The position numbers and the translations under genes are program-made. Below, in pieces: positions 2,938 through 17,579 of a stretch of 64,000 nt of DNA. Position 1 is the stretch's first letter. Each line of letters opens with the position of its first letter. Origin of the DNA: a virus. Under the pieces are notes generated by a model. The model worked only from the letters and a program-made list of their open reading frames with translations. It searched no databases and had not been told where the DNA came from. The stretch spans positions 1 to 64,000 of IMG/VR virus record IMGVR_UViG_3300009514_000018. One strand, written 5' to 3'.

Positions 2938-5043
2938 ATGGGCAGCAACAAGCGGTATATTCACGGATCGGGAGCCCGGTACTTCCTCCGGGAGGAGGAT
3001 CTCGATCCCCTCCCTTCCGAGGAGGAGAGCCCCAACCTCGCGGCGGAGATCATGGTGACGGCGGCGGAGGGGCTGCAGGATCCCCTCCTGCTCGAGGATG
3101 GGGAAGCCGATCCGGAGTTCGACTACCTCTCGTCCGATATGACCGACCAGGAGATCGCCCACGACGCCGTGGAGATCCTGGATGAGGGGGCCCTCCGGGA
3201 GCCCATTCTTCCTCCGGAAGAATGGATCGAGAAGATCCACTTCGCGGGGCCGCACCAGTACGAACTCTGGCCCGGGGTGAAGGCTGACTTCGTCACCATA
3301 GTGAACCGCTTTTTGCATCGGGACACGAGCAAGAACGAGGAGGGAAAAGAGGCGGAGGAGCCCCTGAATTTGGGCATCCTGACGGGCGGGATCGGGGCCG
3401 GGAAGACCCGATGTGCCGAGGTGGTCCTTCAGTACCTCATCTACTGGCTCCTCTGCCACGCCTCTCCGGCCAAGGCCATCGGCATGGTCGCCAGCGCCAC
3501 TATCAACATCGCCATCTTCTCCACGAAGTTCGACAAGGCAAAAAAGGTGATGTACAAGCGCCTTCGGCGGTACATCGACAGCACCCCCTGGTTCAACGAA
3601 AATCACCCGCCAGATCACAACATTCGGAACTCGATGGAGTGGCCGGAAGGCATCGTTGTCGCGCCTTATCCTTCCACGGTTCAGTCCGCCATTTCGGAGG
3701 ATATGTGGCTCGCGGTCCTCGATGAGGCCAACTTCTGGATCTCCAGCCCCGAGGCGGACCGGGTGGACGAGGTCTATCTCTCCCTTCGGCGAAGGATGAG
3801 TTCCCGCTTCGAGGAGTATGACGAGAGGTGGCTGATTCTGGCCGTCTCTTCGGCCACGGATCACAACTCTTTCACCGAAAAAGTGAGGCCCGACGCGGGC
3901 ATTATTCTGTCCAGATCCAAGTGGGAAGCGAAGGGCGAAACCTTCGAGGGGGAGCCCCGCTTCCTCATCGATCTCGGGAACCAGCAGGTGGCCCCCCGGA
4001 TCGTCACCGACAGGAAGGACAAGATCCATGGCCGCCTCCTCCGGGTGCCCGTCCGGTTCCAGAAGTCGGCCAAGGCCGACCTGTCCAACTTCCTCCGTGA
4101 GACCTACGGTATCGGTGTGCAGACCCAGCGGCGCCTCTACGGGTCCTGGCTCCAGGGCTATCCGTGGGAGCCACCCACCTCAGAGGGGGACGAGTTCTAC
4201 GTGGATCCCGATCCCGCAGCGGAGATCCCCAAGCCCCGGCTCCTCGACTCCCCCATTGGCAGGTGCATCCATGTGGACCTCGCCGTCTCGGGCGACTGGG
4301 CCGGTATCTCCTGCGGCTACGTGGAGGACACCGAGTGGAAGGAGGTAGAGGAGGGTATCATGGAGCTGGTCCCCCGGGTGGTGGCCGACTTCGTGATCCG
4401 CTGGCGCTCCAAGATCAAGGCCGAGGAGCTGCCCCTCGAGAAGGTGAGGGAGCTGATCATCTGGATCGCCCAGCATATCCCGGTCCTCCGGGTGACTTTC
4501 GACGGCTGGCAGAGCAAGGACTCTATCCAGCAACTCAACAAGCGGGGCATCGTGGCGGAGCTGCTCTCCGTGGACAGGTCCCCCGCCCCTCACCACTATC
4601 TCAAGCGCCTCCTCGCCGAGCGCCGGATCCTCGTCCCCTATTCCTCCGCCCTTGTCTCCGAGCTAATCAACCTCATCGTCAACCCTACCAACGGGAAGAT
4701 CGACCACCCCAAGCGGGCCCGCGGGGAGGGGGTCAAGGGATCCAAGGATATGGCGGATGCCCTGGCCGGCATGGCCTACTCCTGTCACCAGACCCTCGAG
4801 GGCACCGCCGATGTCCTCGCCCCCGCTGATCTGGAGTTCGTCATTCTGGGTCAACCTCGAAATCGCCCAGTTGAACCTGGGAACGCCCTGGCTCAGGAGA
4901 AGCCAGGGGAGGAAGCTCCTTCTCAGAAGCCGCAGTCGTACCGGACCGTTTCCCAGAAGTCTTCGGCACAACCATTCGACGATGAGCCGCAACCGAGACG
5001 ATTCTTGGGATCTCTTCACCGTTTGGTTCGTCCTGGAGGATAG
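2938..5043 (+). CDS. terL: Terminase large subunit (ATPase-nuclease)
   Basis: DNA-packaging motor: the N-terminal ATPase drives translocation and the C-terminal RNase H-fold nuclease cuts the concatemer at the portal. Visible motifs are Walker A GGIGAGKT with Lys156, Walker B LAVLDEAN with Asp262-Glu263, and three nuclease acids in the expected order: Asp447 (HVDLAVSGDWAG), Asp522 (TFDGWQ) and Asp607 (KDMADALAG). At 701 residues it is longer than many TerL proteins, with an extra N-terminal stretch of about 110 acidic residues. The last ~80 residues after the nuclease domain are low-complexity and Pro/Gln-rich, and overlap the antisense gene at 4841-5401. SD AAGGAG lies 6-7 bases before the ATG. 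Confidence 0.93.
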   Translation: MGSNKRYIHGSGARYFLREEDLDPLPSEEESPNLAAEIMVTAAEGLQDPLLLEDGEADPEFDYLSSDMTDQEIAHDAVEILDEGALREPILPPEEWIEKIHFAGPHQYELWPGVKADFVTIVNRFLHRDTSKNEEGKEAEEPLNLGILTGGIGAGKTRCAEVVLQYLIYWLLCHASPAKAIGMVASATINIAIFSTKFDKAKKVMYKRLRRYIDSTPWFNENHPPDHNIRNSMEWPEGIVVAPYPSTVQSAISEDMWLAVLDEANFWISSPEADRVDEVYLSLRRRMSSRFEEYDERWLILAVSSATDHNSFTEKVRPDAGIILSRSKWEAKGETFEGEPRFLIDLGNQQVAPRIVTDRKDKIHGRLLRVPVRFQKSAKADLSNFLRETYGIGVQTQRRLYGSWLQGYPWEPPTSEGDEFYVDPDPAAEIPKPRLLDSPIGRCIHVDLAVSGDWAGISCGYVEDTEWKEVEEGIMELVPRVVADFVIRWRSKIKAEELPLEKVRELIIWIAQHIPVLRVTFDGWQSKDSIQQLNKRGIVAELLSVDRSPAPHHYLKRLLAERRILVPYSSALVSELINLIVNPTNGKIDHPKRARGEGVKGSKDMADALAGMAYSCHQTLEGTADVLAPADLEFVILGQPRNRPVEPGNALAQEKPGEEAPSQKPQSYRTVSQKSSAQPFDDEPQPRRFLGSLHRLVRPGG

Positions 5044-7400: not shown

Positions 7401-7664
7401 ATGGAAGCTGTCGAGCCGGTTTACTTCTGGTGCCTTATCTGCTCGCTCAGGACTGAGTGTGGGTCGCTTCAATGTGGTCCTTCCCGGTTTCCCAAGTTCT
7501 CCCCTCTCGAGAACTTGAGCCCCAACGTTTATTTCCTGTGTCCCCTATGCGGAGGTCCTACTGATGGCAGAAGAGAGCGGTGCAACTACTGTCGATGTGG
7601 CGAATCTGGAAGTCCGGAACCTGGGCGGGATGGATTCACCAACCGGCAAGGTAATCCGATCTAA
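7401..7664 (+). CDS. Small zinc-ribbon protein overlapping the portal start
   Basis: 87 residues starting at ATG 7401 with an AGAGAGG SD. Contains C11-x2-C14 and a classic ribbon C47-x2-C50-x10-C61-x2-C64. The second CxxC pair lies inside the 101-bp overlap with the portal gene, read in another frame, so the zinc site is complete only if the overlapping frame is truly translated. Proteins of this type bind nucleic acid or protein partners. Function unknown; co-transcribed with the portal gene. Confidence 0.5.
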   Translation: MEAVEPVYFWCLICSLRTECGSLQCGPSRFPKFSPLENLSPNVYFLCPLCGGPTDGRRERCNYCRCGESGSPEPGRDGFTNRQGNPI

Positions 7665-9162
7665 GCAGCTCCGCGATCCCTTCACCGAACTCTATCGGGA
7701 AGGGATCGTCATGGAGCCTCCCTTCGATCCTGACCTATGGGCGGAGCTGGTCCTCATCTCCACTCGCTATAATCAGCTTCTCAGGGTCTATGCCAGGAAC
7801 ACGGCTGGTCTCGGGTGGAAGGTCGTTCCCACTGTGGAGATCTCCAGGAACTCTTCCGAGGAGCTGAAGAAGCAGGTAGCCACGGACATCGAAATTCTCA
7901 AGAAGTTCTATGGTTACCCCCATACTGCCGAGCAGTCACGGGTCTGGATGGAGGAGTCCTTCAGTGAGCTTCTCTTCAAGATGGCGGTGGATCGGGAGGC
8001 CATCGGCAACGGGTATCTTGAGGTCTCCAAGAACCTTCAGGGGAAGCCAGCGGGAGTGTGGCACATCCCGGGGTCTACTGTCAGGCTCAGGGCGGATCTC
8101 GAGGGTTTTGTCCAGTACTCTGCGGGTCATTCGGAGTTCGTCTACTTCAAGAACTTCGGTGACCCAAGGATCATGGACTCACGCTCTGGGGAGTTCGTTA
8201 ACAAAGAGAAGGAAGAAATCCCCCTCAAGTATCATGCGAACGAGATCATCCACTTCCCTCTCTACTCTCCCATCTCGACTCACTATGGCTTCCCCAGGGG
8301 AATTGCCTCCAACCTGGCCATGACTGGTTCCAGGGCCGCGGCCTTGAGGAATTATGCTTTCTTCGATAACGACGCTGTTCCTCGAATGGCAGTCCTGGTT
8401 TCTGGCGGGTCTATTCCAGAGGCTTCCCTCCAGAGAATGGAGGAGTACTTCGCGGCCAGGGGCAAGGGGGCTGACCTGGCTCATCGGGTGGTGGTCATCC
8501 ACGCTCAGCCAGGGCAGGGGGTAGTAGCGGCGCCCACCATCAAGCTCGAGCCTCTCACTGTCGGGAGCACTGATGATGCTTCCTTCACTACATATAGAGA
8601 GGCCAACGACAAGGAGTTGAGAGAGGCCTTCGGACTTTCCGAGCTTCACCTCGGTACCGAGGGGTCGGCCAACAGAGCAGCGGCCATGACCATTCTGCGG
8701 CTGGTCAACCAGCAGGAGTTCTTCCCTGCCATCCTGGAGTTGGAGTATCGCCTGAACGCGACCATTTCCAAGGCTCTTGGCGTTCAGACCTCGGCTCTCC
8801 AGCTTGTCAGGCCGAAGGCTACGGATCCTCTGGATGAGGCCAAAGTACTTCAGCGGGCCCTTCCTGCTGGGGCTGTCGCTCCCAGGGACTTCAGGAAGTG
8901 GATCGAGACTACGCTCGGTTTCGACTGGCCACCAATGACTGAGCCCTGGACCGAGATTCCCTTCACCCTCCTCCTGACGCTCATCCGAGGTGAGCAGATT
9001 CAGCTCGGGGAGGCCGAGCAGATTCAAGAGTCGATGAGGGATATGGTCGATGAGTTCGATACCTCCAGCGATCAGGGGGCGGTCAAGGAGTTCATCGACG
9101 ATCTGAACATCGGTCTTGAGGAGCTGAAGAATGCCATCTCTCTCCAGTCTCAGCACAGATAA
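7564..9162 (+). CDS. Portal protein
   Basis: 532 residues; the SD GGAGG (7551-7555) fixes the ATG at 7564. The N-terminal half matches the PBSX/HK97-type portal pattern: PPFDPDLWAEL followed by a strand-rich wing (NQLLRVYARNTAGLGWKVVP), then the LKYHANEIIHFPLYSP, YGFPRG and YFAARGKG segments typical of these portals. The last 100 residues are acidic and helical, as in portal crown regions. The portal forms the dodecameric ring at one capsid vertex through which DNA passes, and works with terL. The gene overlaps the next one by 32 bases. Confidence 0.88.
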   Translation: MAEESGATTVDVANLEVRNLGGMDSPTGKVIRSKQLRDPFTELYREGIVMEPPFDPDLWAELVLISTRYNQLLRVYARNTAGLGWKVVPTVEISRNSSEELKKQVATDIEILKKFYGYPHTAEQSRVWMEESFSELLFKMAVDREAIGNGYLEVSKNLQGKPAGVWHIPGSTVRLRADLEGFVQYSAGHSEFVYFKNFGDPRIMDSRSGEFVNKEKEEIPLKYHANEIIHFPLYSPISTHYGFPRGIASNLAMTGSRAAALRNYAFFDNDAVPRMAVLVSGGSIPEASLQRMEEYFAARGKGADLAHRVVVIHAQPGQGVVAAPTIKLEPLTVGSTDDASFTTYREANDKELREAFGLSELHLGTEGSANRAAAMTILRLVNQQEFFPAILELEYRLNATISKALGVQTSALQLVRPKATDPLDEAKVLQRALPAGAVAPRDFRKWIETTLGFDWPPMTEPWTEIPFTLLLTLIRGEQIQLGEAEQIQESMRDMVDEFDTSSDQGAVKEFIDDLNIGLEELKNAISLQSQHR

Positions 9163-9544
9163 GCTGCGGCGTCGGCACGCTGCCCTCCACACAATTTACT
9201 CTTGGTTGGTCCAGGGGTTTCCCCAAGGGGACTGGGACAAGGAGTCTTTGGCTGAAGCTCACGAGGCTTCGGCTAAGGAACTGGAGCGCCGAGGGATTCA
9301 GCACGAGTCCCCTCTGGGAGAGGGTAGGCCGGACAGGTCTTCTCACAGTCGCCATGATATCGGGGCTATGACAGACGACGAAGTTTTACATGTCCACGCC
9401 AACCTGCATAGCCTGGCCTCCAAGATTCGCCAGGGCGTTGTGGGTACTGGCTGGACCATGGAGCAGGTCATAGCGGAGCACGAAATTGTAGTTCCTGAGC
9501 TGACAGGTAGGGGCTTCGAACACAACTCACCACTTGAGGGATAG
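9131..9544 (+). CDS. Two-repeat protein sharing a module with the downstream fusion protein
   Basis: 137 residues built of two copies of a ~58-residue unit (residues 7-63 and 80-137). Each has the pattern L-x(5-7)-H-x(2-3)-H, a GDW or GTGW segment, a mid-unit H, and an ending of the type RGI-x-H-x-SPL (RRGIQHESPL, GRGFEHNSPL). A third copy is found in the next gene (residues 297-352). The conserved His pattern suggests a metal- or ligand-binding helical module, but I do not recognise a family. It overlaps the portal 3' end and is followed by the large fusion gene after 2 bases, so it is probably co-translated. Confidence 0.65.
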   Translation: MPSLSSLSTDKLRRRHAALHTIYSWLVQGFPQGDWDKESLAEAHEASAKELERRGIQHESPLGEGRPDRSSHSRHDIGAMTDDEVLHVHANLHSLASKIRQGVVGTGWTMEQVIAEHEIVVPELTGRGFEHNSPLEG

Positions 9545-9546
9545 AA

Positions 9547-12500
9547 ATGACTGAAGGAGTATACGTAAGAGAGGTCCTTGCTGAACTCATCAAGAGCGGT
9601 GAGAAGACAGCTATCGTGTCTGGCTCTCCTATCAAGTGTTCTGAGGGGAAGGTCTTGGTTGGGGGTCGGAAGGCTCTTGGGATCGTAAAGCTGGGGTCTC
9701 CCGAGAAGATCAGCGGGACTGACTTTGACGAGCGAGCTGAGGCTCACATGATCTCAAAGGCTGACAAGAAGAAGCTCTGGCCGAGGAGGAAGATTCTCTT
9801 CTTCCACGAAATCGAGAGCTTCACTCCTTTTTCTGAGGAGCAGCCTGTTTCGAGCCATGGTCAGGCTGGCAACCTCATCAAGTTTTCCTTCGTGGAGGAG
9901 GGTAAGAGACATGCTGCCGTGATGCTGGATCTCGATGGGACAGTCCGTGAGTCTACGGGGCCTGCTCCCTTTCCTTCTTCGGCGTCCGAGGTCAGACTCA
10001 TCGAGGGTGTCATTCCCGCCATGATGGCTTGGCGGAGGAAGGGATATGCCCTCTTCGCTGTCAGCAACCAGGCTGGCGTAGCGAGGGGGACCATCACCGA
10101 GGAGGATTTCTGGGACACTTACAAGAGGACTCAGGAGCTTCTTGGTCCGGCAGCCTTCGATGATGTCCGGGTGGCCTTCGGTCCTGTGGAGTCTCCCGAG
10201 AGGAAGCCATACCCGACGATGGGGCTGGAGCTGGCCGCGGCCCATGATCTCTCTTTGAGGAATTCCTTCTATGTAGGTGATCGGGATGAGGATGCCGAAT
10301 TCGCTGCAAACCTCAGCGTCTACTTCATTCCCTCCAGAAACCTCACTGGCTTCACTCCTCCAGATCTTGATTCCAAGCTGGTGCCCTTCCCATCCAAGCT
10401 GGTGAAGATGCAGCGGAACGAGGTCCTCGAGGACCTCAGTGACCAGGAGCTGCTCGGTGCCCACTATTATGCTCACTCCGCCTGGAACAAGCTGAAGGAC
10501 GGCGGGAAGTTCGGGGACTGGACCAAGGAGGATGTGCAGACCTTCCACGACAGGATCGTCCGCGACATGGAGAGGCGTGGTATCCCCCATGACTCTCCCC
10601 TTAAGAGTCTCTCGAAGACGCCCCAGCTTCTCCGTGATCACATTGTGGCCCACAAGAGCAACAACCAGGAGCTTCATGATCAAGCCGTGGCTGGACTCAA
10701 GGAAGCTGGTATCGAGCATCCAGGGATGTCGGAGGACAACTCCATGGACAAGTCCTGGGTCCAGAAGGGAGGTTTCCTTCCGGTAGGTGGCTCCGGCGTC
10801 CAGAAGGGCACAGAGGTCCTCAAGGTTGAGGACATCGTTGAGAAGCTTGCTGGTCATACGGCTCACCTTCGTATGCCCTTCGTTTACCTGACCGGTGGTC
10901 TCGTGAACCGCGGGGAGACCGAGGGGGACATCGACATTTTGCTTCGCTGCGAGGATGGGGAGCTGGGTGACAAGCTGACTCGCCTTATCCAGTGGAGAAT
11001 CCTGAGATCCCTCCCCAAGGAACAGTGGGATCGGGTAGAGTTCCTCTTCGACGAGGATCATGGTCCCTTCACGAGCCACATCCCCCTCTTCGCGCTGACC
11101 CTTACTCCCTTGGAGCCCCAGGAGATCAAGATGGCTCTGGAGAAGGCCCAGGCGGAGATTAGCAAGTCGGTGAGAGTGGGCTCCTTCTTCAAGATGGTGA
11201 AGCCTATCAAGCCCGCTAAGCCAGGTCAGCGTCAGAGCCCCGAGGCCTTCTTGGAGCTATTCACCGGGGGATGGCCCTGGGAAGTCACCAAGAAGTACGA
11301 TGGGGTTCACGTCCAGGTCCACAAAAGCGGCGACTCGGTGAAGATCTTCACTGAGGATGGGACGGACATCACCTCCAAGGTCCCCGGCGTGATCAAGGTT
11401 GTCAAGGAAGTTGTTCCTGGAACAGCGATTCTGGACGCGGAGCTGGAGAAGTGGGATGGACGAACTCACATCCCGAGAGAAGAGGCAGCAGCTTTCCTCA
11501 ACTCCAAGGAGGGAGACGACATCGGTGTACTCCTCAATGTCTTTGACATGCTGCACAACGGTCAGGATCTTACTGGTCAGCCTCTCTCAGCTCGCCGGGC
11601 CCAGATGAAGAAGGTTTCCTGGCCCCAAAGCACAATGGGCGTCCCTTCTCACTCTGCCAGGCTCAACATGGCTCCCGCCGTAGAGGTGAAGGATAAGAAG
11701 GAACTGAGCGAAGCTCTCAGCAAGATTCGGTACTTACCTGGGTCTGAGGGTGTCGTCGCCAAGAAGCTGGACTCTACCTATCCCACTGGGAAGGATCGGA
11801 CCAACGATTGGGTCAAGTTCCACAACGTCGGGGTGGTGACCGGAGCTGTCATCGAGCGAATCGAGACCAAGACCAAGGGGGTGTACAACTACCTTCATGG
11901 TCTTCGTCGTGGCGACCGTGCAGTGGTTGATCCTGTTGTCCAGGCCGGGGAGTTCAGGGTGGTTCCAGCGGGGAAGACTTTCTCCTCCGATAGAAAGTTC
12001 GAGCCCGGAGATCTCATTCCCATCGAGTTCGAGACCTTCAACTACTTCGTGCAGGACGATGGCCAGGTGAAGGTGTCCCTCTGGGCACCCCGTATTCTGG
12101 ATGAGGAGCCTGCTGAGGCTCCCCACACCATCGGTGATGCGATGAAGATTGCTGAGAAGGAGAAGATCCTTTCCAGCAAGCTTCCTGACGAAGAAGAGCA
12201 GGAAGAAGGCAAGGAAGAGGAGAAGGCTCAGGAGGAAGTGGATAAGGCCCCCGCCGAGATCTCCGAGGAGGTAGGCCTGGAGGGCGAGGATCCTGTAGCG
12301 GCCATCGTTGGGAAGGCGGCCATGGGAGTAGGCCTCTTCGGTGCCTCCGCGTCCAGAGAGGTAGAGTCTTCCATATGGAAGTCTGCTGTGGAGGTTTTCG
12401 ATGGGGACGGGGTGGTCTTTTCGGTTGGGAGGGAGTATGAGGCTAGCGGTACTGATTTCGTTCATCTGGCTGATACTCTGTCTGCTTGCAAGGGAGGCTG

Positions 12501-14445
12501 GGTGATCGAGGTCGGGAAGAAGCATGGTCCCTATCTCGACTACATGGCTCTCAAGGGAGCTGAGGTCGCCACAGAGACAGAAGAGTCCGTCTTCTTCGCC
12601 AAGGCTGGGCTGACAACAGAGTCCTTCGATTCGGGAGGGCGTCTCGCCTCTGAGCAAGGCAACCGGTTCGAGCGGCCCTGGGAGGAGCTGGGGTGGAAGA
12701 AGCCCAGCTTCAAGAGTGGTGGTGAACCAGGAACCTTCATCCACGCGAGGGTAACGGATGATCTCTTTCCTTACCTTGCCGATGCCTGGGAAGTCCTCCT
12801 TGAGTCAGGTGGAACTCCAGAGTTCTATCCCCATGTGACTATTCTCTACAAGCCCAACGAGACGGTGGAGCTGCCAAAGGATCTTCCAGCCAATGTGCAG
12901 GTGAAGCTTGAAGCCGCCCCTGACAAGTTCAGGGGCTTCGATGGAGACAATGGGATCTGGCTTCCAGTCAGGTCGCCTCAGGCTGCGGAGCTTCATGAGC
13001 GACTCGAGGAAGAAGAGGGGAAGATCTTCACTCCCCACATCACCATCGGCTACATCGATGATCCTGATAGGGCTCTCGGTCGCATCAGAGAGATCTTCGA
13101 AGGGGTTCAGCTGGAGTGGTTAGGAGATATCTTTGCCTCCTACCGCAAGAAGTTTTTGGAGAAGGGGAGTGACCCCTACATGGACGCTCCTCCCGAAGGA
13201 GAGGGTAGGGACTACATCTTCCAGCGACACTTTAGAGGCAAGACCGAACATATCGACTTCCGGATCAAGGGGAGCAAGGGTTTCCTTATCGGTTGGACCA
13301 TCGCCGATCTCATAGCCGGGGCCATCAAAGATCCCGTGGAGACGGTCGAAGAGGCCAAAGCGATCCCCCAGAGTGCCTTCAAGGTGAACCTCGATACCGG
13401 AGAGTTCGTGCGTCGTCCTCCCCGGGAGGGTCAAAAGGAGGGGGCCCGGGCTGAGATCGTGGCTCGGAGGAAGGCACCGGAACCTCTCCCTTGGATGGAG
13501 GTCGAGGGGGTGGTTCCAGCAGGGAAGGGTACGGAAGAGGGTATCTCTCCCGGGGCGACCAAGAACTTCCCTGGTGTCTTCATCATCGACGGGAAGGGGA
13601 AGCTCCACTTCGGGACCCAGAAGCCTCACTTCCATGAGTACTTCCTCGAGGACGGCCCCATCAAGGGGCGGCTCATGTTCCGACAGCTCTCCACCGAAGC
13701 TATCGAGAAGGGCTTCTTGGAGGAGGGGGTAGTCAAGGCCATGGTTACTGTCCCCTCGGAGGAGCAGGACTTCAAGAGTGAGCTGGCCTGGTTTGCTATC
13801 CAGCCGGAGGATCAGGAACCATACGTTCTCTCCAACAGGGCGTCCAAGCAGGGATGGATTCCGTCGAAGGGAGTGTCTGCCCTTCCTCTATGGGTGAAGA
13901 GCAAGATCCCGGATGAGTTCCAGTACTGGGCGCATTCAGAGGAAAAGAAGCGTAAAGAGGTGCGTGACGCACTCAGGGAATCCATAAAGAGGGATGAAAC
14001 GAAGGTTTCTTTCGAGAAAAAGGCCGAATCAGGGGATTTCTCTATTCAGCGACAAACTTTTCGGGGTCAGACTGTAGTCAGGGAGGGCCCTTCCCTGACG
14101 AAGTGGCACTTCACTGTACGGAACGGAGAGAAGTTTCATTTCCTCGCTGAAGGACCGGATCCTTTCAAGGAATCCGAGGCTTCATTTCTCTTGACAGAGG
14201 GTTTCCCATACGACAAGATGTTCTCTGAAGGTGATGTTCCCCCTGGAAGCCCCTTAAATGACACGAAAGACACTCCTTCCTCTATCGAAGTCGTTGATCG
14301 AGGTAAGGCTACAGTCCTTATTGACAATCTCGATGCGAAGAAGGTAGAGATCAAGGGAAAGAAGATTAACGGGGTCTTTTTCTTCCGCAAGGGGGAGGGA
14401 GATATCTGGACGATGACCAGGTCGAAGGGACCGGAGGTGGAGTGA
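9547..14445 (+). CDS. Giant nucleic-acid end-processing fusion: HAD phosphatase, NTase, ATP ligase, 2H, LigD-like phosphoesterase
   Basis: 1632 residues in one frame. Domains: 1-115, PUA/ASCH-like region (tentative); 120-265, HAD phosphatase (D128-L-D130-G-T, S173, K220, GDRDED with D245 and D247); 297-352, His-rich module shared with the upstream gene; 445-505, nucleotidyltransferase-like (GG-x3-RG, D461-I-D463, E498); 560-890, ATP-dependent ligase (KYDG with K583, D630-A-E632, EGVVAK 734-739, DWVK757, then an OB-like region); 890-935, Glu-rich linker; 1065-1205, 2H phosphoesterase (H1096-V-T, H1164-I-T); 1220-1440, LigD 3'-phosphoesterase-like (H1228, H1235-I-D1237-F-R1239); a similar fold may repeat at 1510-1620. 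Known activities of these families are end healing and sealing. It lies in the head operon, between portal and protease. Combined role and packaging in the virion are inference. Confidence 0.8.
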   Translation: MTEGVYVREVLAELIKSGEKTAIVSGSPIKCSEGKVLVGGRKALGIVKLGSPEKISGTDFDERAEAHMISKADKKKLWPRRKILFFHEIESFTPFSEEQPVSSHGQAGNLIKFSFVEEGKRHAAVMLDLDGTVRESTGPAPFPSSASEVRLIEGVIPAMMAWRRKGYALFAVSNQAGVARGTITEEDFWDTYKRTQELLGPAAFDDVRVAFGPVESPERKPYPTMGLELAAAHDLSLRNSFYVGDRDEDAEFAANLSVYFIPSRNLTGFTPPDLDSKLVPFPSKLVKMQRNEVLEDLSDQELLGAHYYAHSAWNKLKDGGKFGDWTKEDVQTFHDRIVRDMERRGIPHDSPLKSLSKTPQLLRDHIVAHKSNNQELHDQAVAGLKEAGIEHPGMSEDNSMDKSWVQKGGFLPVGGSGVQKGTEVLKVEDIVEKLAGHTAHLRMPFVYLTGGLVNRGETEGDIDILLRCEDGELGDKLTRLIQWRILRSLPKEQWDRVEFLFDEDHGPFTSHIPLFALTLTPLEPQEIKMALEKAQAEISKSVRVGSFFKMVKPIKPAKPGQRQSPEAFLELFTGGWPWEVTKKYDGVHVQVHKSGDSVKIFTEDGTDITSKVPGVIKVVKEVVPGTAILDAELEKWDGRTHIPREEAAAFLNSKEGDDIGVLLNVFDMLHNGQDLTGQPLSARRAQMKKVSWPQSTMGVPSHSARLNMAPAVEVKDKKELSEALSKIRYLPGSEGVVAKKLDSTYPTGKDRTNDWVKFHNVGVVTGAVIERIETKTKGVYNYLHGLRRGDRAVVDPVVQAGEFRVVPAGKTFSSDRKFEPGDLIPIEFETFNYFVQDDGQVKVSLWAPRILDEEPAEAPHTIGDAMKIAEKEKILSSKLPDEEEQEEGKEEEKAQEEVDKAPAEISEEVGLEGEDPVAAIVGKAAMGVGLFGASASREVESSIWKSAVEVFDGDGVVFSVGREYEASGTDFVHLADTLSACKGGWVIEVGKKHGPYLDYMALKGAEVATETEESVFFAKAGLTTESFDSGGRLASEQGNRFERPWEELGWKKPSFKSGGEPGTFIHARVTDDLFPYLADAWEVLLESGGTPEFYPHVTILYKPNETVELPKDLPANVQVKLEAAPDKFRGFDGDNGIWLPVRSPQAAELHERLEEEEGKIFTPHITIGYIDDPDRALGRIREIFEGVQLEWLGDIFASYRKKFLEKGSDPYMDAPPEGEGRDYIFQRHFRGKTEHIDFRIKGSKGFLIGWTIADLIAGAIKDPVETVEEAKAIPQSAFKVNLDTGEFVRRPPREGQKEGARAEIVARRKAPEPLPWMEVEGVVPAGKGTEEGISPGATKNFPGVFIIDGKGKLHFGTQKPHFHEYFLEDGPIKGRLMFRQLSTEAIEKGFLEEGVVKAMVTVPSEEQDFKSELAWFAIQPEDQEPYVLSNRASKQGWIPSKGVSALPLWVKSKIPDEFQYWAHSEEKKRKEVRDALRESIKRDETKVSFEKKAESGDFSIQRQTFRGQTVVREGPSLTKWHFTVRNGEKFHFLAEGPDPFKESEASFLLTEGFPYDKMFSEGDVPPGSPLNDTKDTPSSIEVVDRGKATVLIDNLDAKKVEIKGKKINGVFFFRKGEGDIWTMTRSKGPEVE

Positions 14446-16043
14446 TGAATTTGAACACTGAAACCTTCCCGGTCGAGGTCAGCTACGCTGTTCCCATTCT
14501 GAAAGCCAGCGAGAATCCCCGGACTGGAGACTGGGTCGTTGAGGGCTTTGTTGCCACAGCCGACTTAGATCTTCAGGGGGACGTGATCACCGAGAGCGGA
14601 CTCAAGGAGGGGGCCGAGACGCTCAACGAAGCCAAGACTCTCCTCTGGAACCATGACGTAAACCAGCCCATTGGAAAACTCCTCCTTGCCAAGGTGAAGG
14701 ACAATGGGATCTGGGTGCGAGCCGTTGTCGATAAGACCTCGGAGATGGGTCAGCAGGTCTGGAAGTGGGTCAAGGAAGGGATCATCTCGCGTTTCTCGAT
14801 CCGGGGAGATGCACTGGCTTCGACAAAGGGGTACATCAAGGGTAAGCTGGTCAACCTTCTGACCAAGCTTCGCCTCATCGAAGCTTCTCTTGTCACCCTC
14901 CCAGCGAATCCAAAAGCCGAAGTAATGAACTGGTATGTGGCCAAGTCCTTTGAGGGCTACTACAGGCCTATAGAGGAATTCTTCCACCAGGAAGTGATTC
15001 CTCTCGTTTCTACGGAGACCGGATTCGAGGGGACGGTGGAGGTGGGAAAGCTGGCCGGGGATGTTGCTGAGGGCATCGAGGCCTCCCCTACCGTGTGTAA
15101 GAACAGCGACTCCAATCCCGTGGGCGTAGTGGAGGAGGTAGCCAAGATCGATGACGGCAACCTCTATCTCAAGATCCGCTACGCTTCCTCGGCCCAAGGA
15201 ACCGAAGGTGGTGTCTTTGTCCGCGGGAAGATCTTGAAGTCAGGCAATAGTGAGGTCCTGGGATTCCTTCCCCGGGGCGTATGGATTCTCGACAAGGAGA
15301 CAGCCATGAACAAGAACTTGGAAGGGGCCCAGGATGCCATCAAGCAGCTGTCGGCGCTCGGTGAGCAGCTGAAGGGCCTGCAGGATCAGTTCGCAAAGAT
15401 GACCGAAACCATCTCCAAGCTCAAGGTGGAGGAGCCCAAGGTGGAGCAGCACGCTGGCTCGACCAAGGCTCAGATGCCTGAGGAAGAGGAGAAGGAGTGC
15501 AAGCCTCTCGAGGAGAAGGCTCAGATGCCTCCCGAGGAGAAGCCCACCGAGGAACCCTCGGTGAAGGCGACTCCCAAGGAGGAGGAGAAGCCCCCCGAGG
15601 AGCCTTCCACGATGGCCGACAAGCCCGAGGAGAAGCCCATGGAGGAGGAGAAGGCCGAATCTCCCAAGGAGGAGAAGTATCCCCTCCCCGAGCCCAAGAA
15701 TAGGGACGAGGCGAAGTCCACCCTGAAGAGGGTGCTCCTTCTCGCCGCCAGGGCTCTCAGCAAGGGCCAGTACGAAGATATTGCCAAGAAGCTCGAAGGC
15801 CTCAGCGAGGCCGAGATGGAGGAGCTGAGTAAGAACCTCCTCGAAGAGAAGAAGGACAATACCCCCGCCGCCAGTTCCGATTCGACCGCGATCCTCGAGG
15901 CCATCAAGAGCCTCCAGGAGACCATCTCGCAGGCGCCCGCCTTCCAGAAGGGTGACTCCAAGGGTGGCAGGGTCGAGAAGAAGGGTGACGAGATTCCCTG
16001 GACTTCCGGGTTGGTGTACCCCCACTTCAACCAGGAGCAGTAG
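14445..16043 (+). CDS. Prohead serine protease fused to scaffold-like C-terminus
   Basis: 532 residues from ATG 14445, which overlaps the upstream TGA by one base; GGAGG (14433-14437) is the SD. Residues 1-165 match the HK97/XkdF-type prohead protease: His70 (LLWNHD-x-NQPIG), Ser118 (ISRFSIRG) and Glu146 in LIEASLVTLPANP are the likely catalytic set. Residues 165-285 form a beta-rich region. From Met288 on, the protein is helical and acidic with Lys/Glu/Pro repeats, typical of scaffolding proteins, and ends with WTSGLVYPHFN. The protease matures the prohead by cleaving scaffold and capsid precursors. The capsid gene follows 63 bases later. Confidence 0.85.
   Translation: MNLNTETFPVEVSYAVPILKASENPRTGDWVVEGFVATADLDLQGDVITESGLKEGAETLNEAKTLLWNHDVNQPIGKLLLAKVKDNGIWVRAVVDKTSEMGQQVWKWVKEGIISRFSIRGDALASTKGYIKGKLVNLLTKLRLIEASLVTLPANPKAEVMNWYVAKSFEGYYRPIEEFFHQEVIPLVSTETGFEGTVEVGKLAGDVAEGIEASPTVCKNSDSNPVGVVEEVAKIDDGNLYLKIRYASSAQGTEGGVFVRGKILKSGNSEVLGFLPRGVWILDKETAMNKNLEGAQDAIKQLSALGEQLKGLQDQFAKMTETISKLKVEEPKVEQHAGSTKAQMPEEEEKECKPLEEKAQMPPEEKPTEEPSVKATPKEEEKPPEEPSTMADKPEEKPMEEEKAESPKEEKYPLPEPKNRDEAKSTLKRVLLLAARALSKGQYEDIAKKLEGLSEAEMEELSKNLLEEKKDNTPAASSDSTAILEAIKSLQETISQAPAFQKGDSKGGRVEKKGDEIPWTSGLVYPHFNQEQ
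15306..16043 (+). CDS. Probable nested scaffold protein from internal in-frame start
   Basis: Inside the protease gene, AAGGAG (15294-15299) stands six bases before an in-frame ATG at 15306. Translation from there gives 245 residues starting MNKNLEGAQDAIKQL, exactly the acidic helical part without the protease domain. This is the arrangement of phage lambda C/Nu3, in which the scaffold is made from an internal start of the protease gene. The SD and domain boundary are seen directly; that it is used is inference. Confidence 0.5.
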   Translation: MNKNLEGAQDAIKQLSALGEQLKGLQDQFAKMTETISKLKVEEPKVEQHAGSTKAQMPEEEEKECKPLEEKAQMPPEEKPTEEPSVKATPKEEEKPPEEPSTMADKPEEKPMEEEKAESPKEEKYPLPEPKNRDEAKSTLKRVLLLAARALSKGQYEDIAKKLEGLSEAEMEELSKNLLEEKKDNTPAASSDSTAILEAIKSLQETISQAPAFQKGDSKGGRVEKKGDEIPWTSGLVYPHFNQEQ

Positions 16044-16106: not shown

Positions 16107-17579
16107 ATGAGCTGGATGCTGCAGAACGAACAGCGTATCCGCAAGGCTTTGGAGGCCTTTGAGAGTGGGGCCTTCGCGCACGGTGGCGCACTGAACCCCG
16201 AGCAGGCCAAGCAGTTCCTGCGGATCATCAGAGACAACACGGCGGCCCTCGGCGCCATTCGCCTCGAGGAGATGGATCGTCTCCAGAAGGATATCGACAA
16301 GCTCTTTATCGGGGAGCCGGTGTCCGAGCACGTTCTCGAGGGACATGGACCTCCCGCCGCCAACGAGGTTCGCAGACCCGTGTTCGCACGGGTGCAGCTG
16401 GACTGCAACAACAAGAAGATCCGTTCCGTGTGGCCTGCCACCACGGAAGCCCTGCAGACTGGTATCGAGCGGGGCCGTCAGATGGAGCAGACCCTCTTCG
16501 AGTCCGCCGTGCAGAAGGTGGGCGACGATCAGGAGTTCCTCTTCTGGCAGGGTGATACCGCCTTCGCCGGTGGGATCACCCCCGCCGCCAAGCTCCTCGA
16601 GACCACCGACGGTATCGGCAAGATCTCCAGGGGAGCCCATATTCTCGACGCCGAGGGCGCTGTGATCTCCCACGAGCTGTTCGCCGTGGCGATCCGCACC
16701 CTTCCCAAGCACGTCATCCCCAGGCCGGATCTCCGATGGTGGATGTCCGTGAACACCGCGATCGACTGGATGTCCGTCTTCGGTGACAGGCAGACCGGTG
16801 GCGGAGATGCGGCCATCGAGGGCAGGATGATCAAGCCCTACGGTATCCCCATCTTTTCCAAGAGCTACGATGGTGTGGAGCGCTACGGCGTGCCCCACAT
16901 CCCATCGGATCTCCCCCTGCCCGTGTCCACCGACAGCCCGGCCTATGCGAAGGGCGTGCTGAACGGACCCTTCACCATCGATGCGACTCCCGGCTCTCCC
17001 ACCAAGAACAATCTCCTCGAGCTGCAGCTCGATGGTGTGGCGGCTAACGTCGTGATCACGTTGCCTGCGGGCGTCTGGACTGTGTCCGAGATCGCCGGGT
17101 TCGTCAATGAGGATCTGGCTGCGGATGTGAATTACGGAATCAACTACGCTCACGTCGCCTCGAACGACGGCTTCGGCCACCTGGTCTTCGAGAGCCCCAC
17201 TGTGGGCGCCGCTTCCAACATCAGCCTGCATTCCACCACTCCGGCTGGTGAGCAGGCCTACACAACCTTCGGGTTCCCCAGCCCCGGTGTGGGCCCCATC
17301 CCTGATCCCATGTCATACGATGGTGAGACGGGAGCTTCCGGTGACGCGGTGGTTTACGAGGGCAGCTGGTTCCTCCTCTCTCCCGCCAAGCTGATGATCA
17401 TGGGTCTCTATACCGGCCCCGCTGGTGGCCAGAGGAAGACCGGTCTCAGGGTCTACTCCGACTTCCGTCCCGAGGAGGATACCCTCAAGCTCTTCATCTA
17501 CTGGCAGACCGATGTCAAGGTGGAGAACCTGGACGCCATGGTCCGCGTGGACAACGTCCGTCAGCTCAACCTGGCCTAA
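16107..17579 (+). CDS. Major capsid protein with inserted domain
   Basis: 490 residues, SD GGAGGAC before ATG 16107. The N-terminal helical part (residues 1-75) precedes an HK97-fold core: RRPVFARVQLDC, a helix FESAVQKVGDDQEFLFW, and the C-terminal LSPAKLMIMGLYTG and LKLFIYWQTDVKVENLDAMVRVDNV strands typical of major capsid proteins. Between residues ~295 and 390 lies an inserted beta domain with flagellin-hook-like features that also occurs in the sheath protein of this phage. Position directly after protease/scaffold supports the call. The long minus-strand ORF opposite this gene and the scaffold is a shadow. Confidence 0.88.
   Translation: MSWMLQNEQRIRKALEAFESGAFAHGGALNPEQAKQFLRIIRDNTAALGAIRLEEMDRLQKDIDKLFIGEPVSEHVLEGHGPPAANEVRRPVFARVQLDCNNKKIRSVWPATTEALQTGIERGRQMEQTLFESAVQKVGDDQEFLFWQGDTAFAGGITPAAKLLETTDGIGKISRGAHILDAEGAVISHELFAVAIRTLPKHVIPRPDLRWWMSVNTAIDWMSVFGDRQTGGGDAAIEGRMIKPYGIPIFSKSYDGVERYGVPHIPSDLPLPVSTDSPAYAKGVLNGPFTIDATPGSPTKNNLLELQLDGVAANVVITLPAGVWTVSEIAGFVNEDLAADVNYGINYAHVASNDGFGHLVFESPTVGAASNISLHSTTPAGEQAYTTFGFPSPGVGPIPDPMSYDGETGASGDAVVYEGSWFLLSPAKLMIMGLYTGPAGGQRKTGLRVYSDFRPEEDTLKLFIYWQTDVKVENLDAMVRVDNVRQLNLA

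Follow-up and report, generated by a model that had tools for sequence, protein, structure and literature searches.

A head-operon protein of an uncultured virus that joins a DNA ligase to LigD-like phosphoesterase domains

LigD of bacteria and archaea (POL-PE-LIG) holds a ligase and a phosphoesterase (PE) in one protein, and its PE fold, found also in archaeal stand-alone PEs (3P43, 3P4H), is marked by a His/His/Asp metal triad and an Arg; the viral protein described here resembles both in these respects. In the Pseudomonas aeruginosa LigD, H42/H48/D50 and H84/Y88 are essential, and His84 and Tyr88 bind phosphate (PMC8656161). Mycobacteriophages Omega and Corndog rely on end-joining enzymes for genome circularisation (Pitcher et al. 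2006, as cited in PMC7719229). T4 Pnkp/Rnl1 and the ligase-RlaP sets have a HAD phosphatase, a 2H domain, a Pol-beta nucleotidyltransferase (NTase) and a ligase as partners (PMC7824862). Polyvalent proteins of phages and conjugative elements (Iyer et al. 2017) are large and multidomain, their genes lie next to portal/MuF genes, and packaging is predicted for them; 2H domains occur in them, 2H-portal and 2H-MuF fusions included, and this 2H is reported never to be seen with RNA ligases (PMC5512222).

Here, we describe P0001, a protein from a 75-kb IMG/VR virus record of which we analyzed positions 1 to 64,000 (the window). Like polyvalent proteins, P0001 combines several unrelated enzymatic domains and is encoded with portal and terminase head genes.

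Place of the gene and domains of the protein

P0001 is encoded among the following genes of the window:

2938..5043, plus strand: terminase large subunit (phrog_2, 4e-10)
7564..9162, plus strand: portal protein (phrog_12, 3e-30)
9131..9544, plus strand: small ORF built from two copies of a ~50-aa helical element, preceding P0001 (profile)
9547..14445, plus strand: P0001, 1632-aa multidomain head-operon protein (open frame, domain families, relatives)
14442..16043, plus strand: head maturation protease / head protein (phrog_80, 1e-18)
16107..17579, plus strand: virion structural protein (phrog_1623, 3e-40)

The P0001 frame has no stop across 1632 codons, begins 2 nt past the small ORF at 9131-9544, and overlaps by 4 nt the ORF of the protease (start 14442). 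An initial annotation, made from the sequence alone, had read this ORF correctly, with each residue that it named at its true position, and had placed the gene between portal and protease, away from the replication genes. The PHROG matches agree with that placement, and the replication genes (helicase, nuclease, RecA with a bacterial C-terminal domain and PolA) lie at 57-64 kb on the minus strand. No second ATP ligase was found in the virus record, replication genes included. Outside the window, the record also holds a ribonucleotide reductase gene with intein and LAGLIDADG domains (bases 68880-73178 of the 75 kb; L070:4880-9178, minus strand).

Within P0001, we assigned these domains:

9916..10317, plus strand: HAD phosphatase domain (PNK3P / HAD-IIIA), residues 124-257 (PF08645, TIGR01662; conserved in locus L006)
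10435..10590, plus strand: ~50-aa helical element, residues 297-348 (family profile; 37/46 loci)
10822..11136, plus strand: Pol-beta-type NTase domain, residues 426-530 (family profile, AF2 model, conservation)
11179..12162, plus strand: ATP-dependent DNA ligase, adenylation and OB domains, residues 545-872 (PF01068, AF2, Foldseek, conservation)
12727..13161, plus strand: 2H phosphoesterase domain, residues 1061-1205, with H1096-V-T and H1164-I-T (PF13563, 30 bits against a cut-off of 27)
13165..13701, plus strand: LigD-type phosphoesterase domain PE1, residues 1207-1385 (family profile, AF2/Foldseek, conservation)
14017..14442, plus strand: second, degenerate LigD-PE-like domain PE2, residues ~1491-1632 (profile, hhalign, repeated strand order)

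For the ligase, we found that DNA_ligase_A_M (PF01068) matches residues 580-758 above its curated cut-off (6e-23), that the NCBIfam ligase matches (TIGR00574, dnl1) agree, and that a PDB sequence search with P0001 returns archaeal and human DNA ligases. The AF2 model of residues 410-884, covering NTase and ligase, has a pLDDT of 90.6, and its nearest fold by Foldseek is that of archaeal DNA ligases (1e-21). Motif I (K583-x-D-G) and motifs III-V (E632, E734-G, K739, K757) are intact, in order and invariant: among the relatives that cover them, K583 is found in 30/30, E632 and E734 in 32/32, and K739 and K757 in 31/31. No RNA-ligase family in Pfam or NCBIfam matches this domain. By profile and predicted structure, the ligase is of the DNA-ligase type and not of the RNA-ligase type, and the complete ATP-dependent ligase first proposed from K583 to K757 is borne out by PF01068, the model and the invariant motifs.

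Matches of the NTase family profile are weak (0.028) and fall in one superfamily, nearly all being Pol beta, TdT, Pol mu and Mnt. In the G-[GS]...D-x-D motif of this superfamily, G450, D461 and D463 are invariant, with D461/D463 in 29/29 relatives, and the position of the third carboxylate is D in 13/29 relatives and A516 in P0001. These results suggest a Pol-beta-type NTase at residues 426-530 whose third acid is missing here. Of the three acids originally named, D461 and D463 stand; E498 does not hold as the third carboxylate, since it is E in 1/29 relatives. No AEP polymerase family in Pfam or NCBIfam matches P0001, which has the Pol-beta-type NTase instead.

Family alignments were needed to detect the PE domains, and PF13298 (LigD_N) gives no direct match to P0001. 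A six-member PE profile reached 0.13 at best; the 35-member family profile of residues 1201-1390 retrieved only five LigD-PE structures from the PDB, the best at 2e-6, and the PE2 family profile placed the same five first (best 1.7e-9). The two profiles also align with each other (hhalign, E 7e-10). In the AF2 model of residues 1200-1632 (pLDDT 88.1), the strand order of PE1 repeats in PE2, and the only significant Foldseek matches of this model in the PDB are four LigD PE entries; a BFVD structure search gave one marginal match only. Because the PE1 and PE2 profiles match LigD PEs and each other, the C-terminal part of P0001 is, on sequence and model, two LigD-PE domains in tandem.

PE1 has the LigD metal triad and Arg intact, with H1228, H1235 and D1237 in 35/35 relatives and R1239 in 34/35. 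The equivalents of LigD H84 and Y88 are E/Q (30/35) and Trp (35/35), respectively. Since both are replaced family-wide, the PE1 reaction may differ from that of LigD or be weak. In PE2, the metal motif is lost in P0001 (WHFTVR), and HYDLR or HWDLR is kept in L019, L033 and L057. The LigD-like 3'-phosphoesterase recognized early on by H1228, H1235, D1237 and R1239 agrees with the family profile and with Foldseek on the predicted structures, which recover both the ligase fold and the LigD-PE fold. All the domain families named at that stage are supported, the NTase by weak profile matches; PE2 (~1491-1632) and the helical element (297-348) had been missed.

The HAD domain has the DxDGT, Ser/Thr, Lys and acidic motifs of the PNK 3'-phosphatases intact, and PNK3P (PF08645) matches residues 126-246 (4e-5, 24.0 bits against a cut-off of 22). 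HAD-IIIA (TIGR01662) exceeds its NCBIfam cut-off, histidinol-phosphatase (TIGR01656) reaches 1e-16 yet stays below its own, and HisB/GmhB/PNK phosphatases are among the PDB sequence-search matches. PF08645 and TIGR01662 uphold the HAD call made on D128/D130, S173, K220 and D245. The HisB/GmhB branch scores comparably to or better than PNK3P, so the profiles do not fix the HAD substrate. For the 2H domain, both HxT/S motifs of the family are intact (H1096-V-T and H1164-I-T, as initially read), and 2_5_RNA_ligase2 (PF13563) matches residues 1126-1187 above its curated cut-off (6e-7).

The ~50-aa helical element is present in 37/46 loci, nearly always inside module proteins, and its 37-member profile had no convincing PDB match. 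A Pyr_excise (T4 endonuclease V) identity was weak (0.0067-0.14), is unsupported by this profile and was rejected. This element of head-operon proteins appears undescribed. The module of L006 is also preceded by a small helical-element ORF of the same kind.

Distribution of the core and its head-operon position

With the whole of P0001 as query, a first scan of viral contigs gave no relatives. Among 50,697 phage records, ANMV-1 virus alone carries a relative of the combination, and it was again the only real match among phage records when three further relatives served as queries. The ANMV-1 protein has 866 aa and matches P0001 residues 412-1630 at 30% identity; the host is given as an uncultured archaeon from a methane seep, and the gene lies immediately 3' of the portal gene and 5' of a minor-head protein. 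A Bradyrhizobium phage ligase was rejected as a relative, since it is of the ordinary kind and not encoded in a head operon. When alignments served as queries, viral contigs yielded 7 and later 53 loci, and four genome contigs with the module are binned as Dehalococcoidia, Aenigmatarchaeota, Archaeoglobales and Thermoprotei.

The loci were reduced to 46 non-redundant ones, found by a PE-based search that is blind to ligase and to position; the ligase is present in 44, the NTase in 37, and ligase plus PE in a single ORF in 24. By sequence comparison, what stays constant across the family is a core of NTase, DNA ligase and PE-PE, plus the ~50-aa helical element, and the architecture that the initial annotation proposed to seek in other phages recurs as this core. 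Six usable pairs of close relatives (one further, misframed pair was left out) gave dN/dS of 0.06-0.14. Hence, selection on the product is strongly purifying in the relatives.

Around the core, the partners vary. An MBL fold occurs in 14 scanned regions and a D12 N6-adenine DNA methyltransferase in 11. A scan for HAD-type relatives found HAD in the window protein and the L006 group only, and 2H was not found in relatives, the window protein alone carrying it. Hence, the initial description of an all-in-one protein holds for the end-healing and sealing domains in one ORF, and HAD and 2H are a local elaboration rather than family core.

Several module proteins have unusual arrangements. Hint/LAGLIDADG intein-type domains lie in L062:4284-5264, L060:7065-8045, L039:283-2973 and L061:5262-8612; the intein of L062 interrupts the ligase, and L060 has its insert at the same place. 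In L029, L030, L031, L033, L034 and L057 (e.g. L057:2365-6345), the ligase is split across consecutive ORFs with the NTase after the ligase, which reads as a naturally split or permuted ligase. In L036, the module is immediately followed by another PE2-ligase ORF (L036:9983-11290), so that this head operon has two ligases. Just upstream of the L025 module, a MuF head protein is fused to a zincin-like metallopeptidase (L025:6326-8161); this module has NTase and PE, and a ligase was not detectable in its 77-kb record. The module ligase is the sole ATP ligase found in most records.

In PHROG scans, the genes upstream of the modules included portals of several families (phrog_12, 113, 18178, 9232, 146 and others), and those downstream included major head proteins and head maturation proteases. 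Iterated profiles, whose small seed set makes the counts lower bounds, placed a portal upstream in at least 24 of the 36 loci that have 2 kb or more of upstream sequence, and a protease or capsid protein downstream in at least 30/46. L011 and L012 carry the module as a fusion with an XkdF prohead protease (7e-14 and 2.5e-17). In L010 and in L065, a Dehalococcoidia contig, it is the PE-PE half that is joined to a protease-like head protein (phrog_15531, 0.001). As far as these gene orders go, the position is conserved across unrelated head types, and this, with the protease fusions of the relatives, disfavours chance insertion.

Proposed function and alternatives

We propose, with a probability of about 0.55, that P0001 is a head-associated machine for healing and sealing DNA ends, probably delivered by the virion and acting like LigD. 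The Pol-beta-type NTase, the ATP-dependent DNA ligase and the two LigD-type 3'-phosphoesterases would form the core machine, and the HAD 3'-phosphatase-like and 2H domains would be additions of the window virus. Made alongside portal and protease, the protein would probably enter the prohead and most likely exit the capsid with the DNA. Once ejected, it would repair nicks or damaged 3' ends, or close the entering genome by sealing (circularisation), ahead of expression of the viral repair genes. The core would act as LigD does, without Ku or an AEP polymerase, converting damaged DNA 3' ends to ligatable ones and then sealing them, and methyltransferase, MBL, HAD and 2H would protect or trim. 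We infer the enzymatic activity, packaging and ejection in this scheme, as well as the precise substrate. Of the genome ends and host RNA suggested initially, DNA is favoured over host RNA because the ligase is DNA-type, with an archaeal DNA-ligase fold, and the relatives carry D12 methyltransferases.

Ku (PF02735) was absent from 21 virus records, which may be incomplete. Hence, classical NHEJ was rejected, and joining two ends would call for some other bridging factor. Nick or cohesive-end sealing requires no Ku. The place of the module among capsid-building genes and its occasional fusion to the capsid-maturation protease suggest that these viruses may have a DNA-repair kit of their own inside the particle. 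More tentatively, and at somewhat under even odds, we extend this to a broad group of uncultured bacterial and archaeal tailed viruses: they would package a self-contained, Ku-independent DNA repair/protection kit consisting of the core plus lineage-specific MBL, DNA methyltransferase, HAD or 2H. Produced together with the capsid protease or as a fusion with it, the kit would be ejected on entry to mend and seal the genome.

Portal adjacency would suit a packaging function equally well, and damaged DNA hinders packaging. Both fit a protein that is not injected and instead, docked at portal or terminase, repairs nicks, gaps and ends of concatemers before or during packaging, or works as a late general ligase; because it holds the sole ATP ligase in most records, which also favours such a role, the module possibly serves replication too. 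We consider a role confined to the producing cell unlikely, as by itself it leaves unexplained the prohead-protease fusion and the methyltransferase partners, which suit protection on entry. Less likely again is an anti-defence effector whose ejected domains counter host attack on DNA or nucleotide signals, with 2H directed at cyclic or 2'-5' oligonucleotides, the methyltransferase at restriction, and ligase/PE at cleavage. The D12 methyltransferases of relatives, the pairing of the L025 module with a MuF-zincin protein and an architecture matching that of polyvalent proteins near portal genes (PMC5512222) speak for it; it overlaps with end repair, and the invariant core looks repair-like rather than immunity-specific.

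Repair of RNA (tRNA) against host anticodon nucleases, in which 2H and HAD heal 2',3'-cyclic ends and the ligase seals RNA, would draw on a 2H domain that exceeds its Pfam cut-off and on 2H, HAD and Pol-beta NTase being the phage RNA-repair partner set (PMC7824862). We regard it as improbable and rejected it as the main function on ligase type and domain distribution: the ligase is DNA-type with an OB domain (PF01068, dnl1, archaeal DNA ligases by Foldseek) and matches no RNA-ligase family, PE is an enzyme of DNA repair in its known settings, nearly all relatives are without HAD and 2H, and relatives carry DNA methyltransferases. A structural or scaffold-like head protein with co-opted dead enzyme folds would account for the degenerate PE2 and third NTase acid of P0001 and for the replaced PE H84/Y88; we give it hardly any weight, as ligase motifs and a PE1 metal triad that are invariant across 30% identity distances are not expected of dead folds.

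Comparison with known systems

We found no published description of the module architecture in the open-access literature, and as far as that literature shows, the early impression that combination and place are undescribed held. To our knowledge, no other family has LigD-type end-healing enzymes and a DNA ligase in the capsid gene block; the module family would be the first such, conserved across unrelated tailed-virus heads in archaeal and bacterial viruses. Our proposal offers a concrete, testable answer to a long-standing question: what repairs a linear viral genome that is nicked, gapped or damaged at its 3' ends before any viral protein can be made. The phosphoesterases of the module form a subfamily of their own (H84 to E/Q, Y88 to Trp), and its DNA ligases, from hot and anaerobic settings, are possible reagents.

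AJP62006.1 of ANMV-1 virus ('ATP-dependent DNA ligase') is a true relative with the order NTase-ligase-PE-PE; in contrast to P0001, it is annotated as a ligase only and has no HAD, 2H or helical element. We found no paper describing this protein in the open-access literature, and no ligase is named in the ANME-1 virome paper (PMC9894754). Unlike LigD, the module has two PEs with H84 and Y88 replaced and a Pol-beta NTase in the place of the AEP polymerase; it is without Ku, virus-encoded and in a head operon. The ligases of T4 Pnkp/Rnl1 and the ligase-RlaP sets are RNA ligases, in separate proteins and outside the head operon (PMC7824862), and P0001 does not have their RNA-ligase-type ligase. 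No architecture of DNA ligase plus PE appears among polyvalent proteins in the accessible part of PMC5512222. Omega and Corndog bring Ku and borrow the host LigD (cited in PMC7719229), whereas the module virus supplies the ligase and PE itself, without Ku. These mycobacteriophages, which use Ku and host LigD to circularise, are the nearest functional precedent. The module is best compared to a head-operon polyvalent protein with a new LigD-like core, representing a widespread and apparently undescribed family in uncultured viruses.
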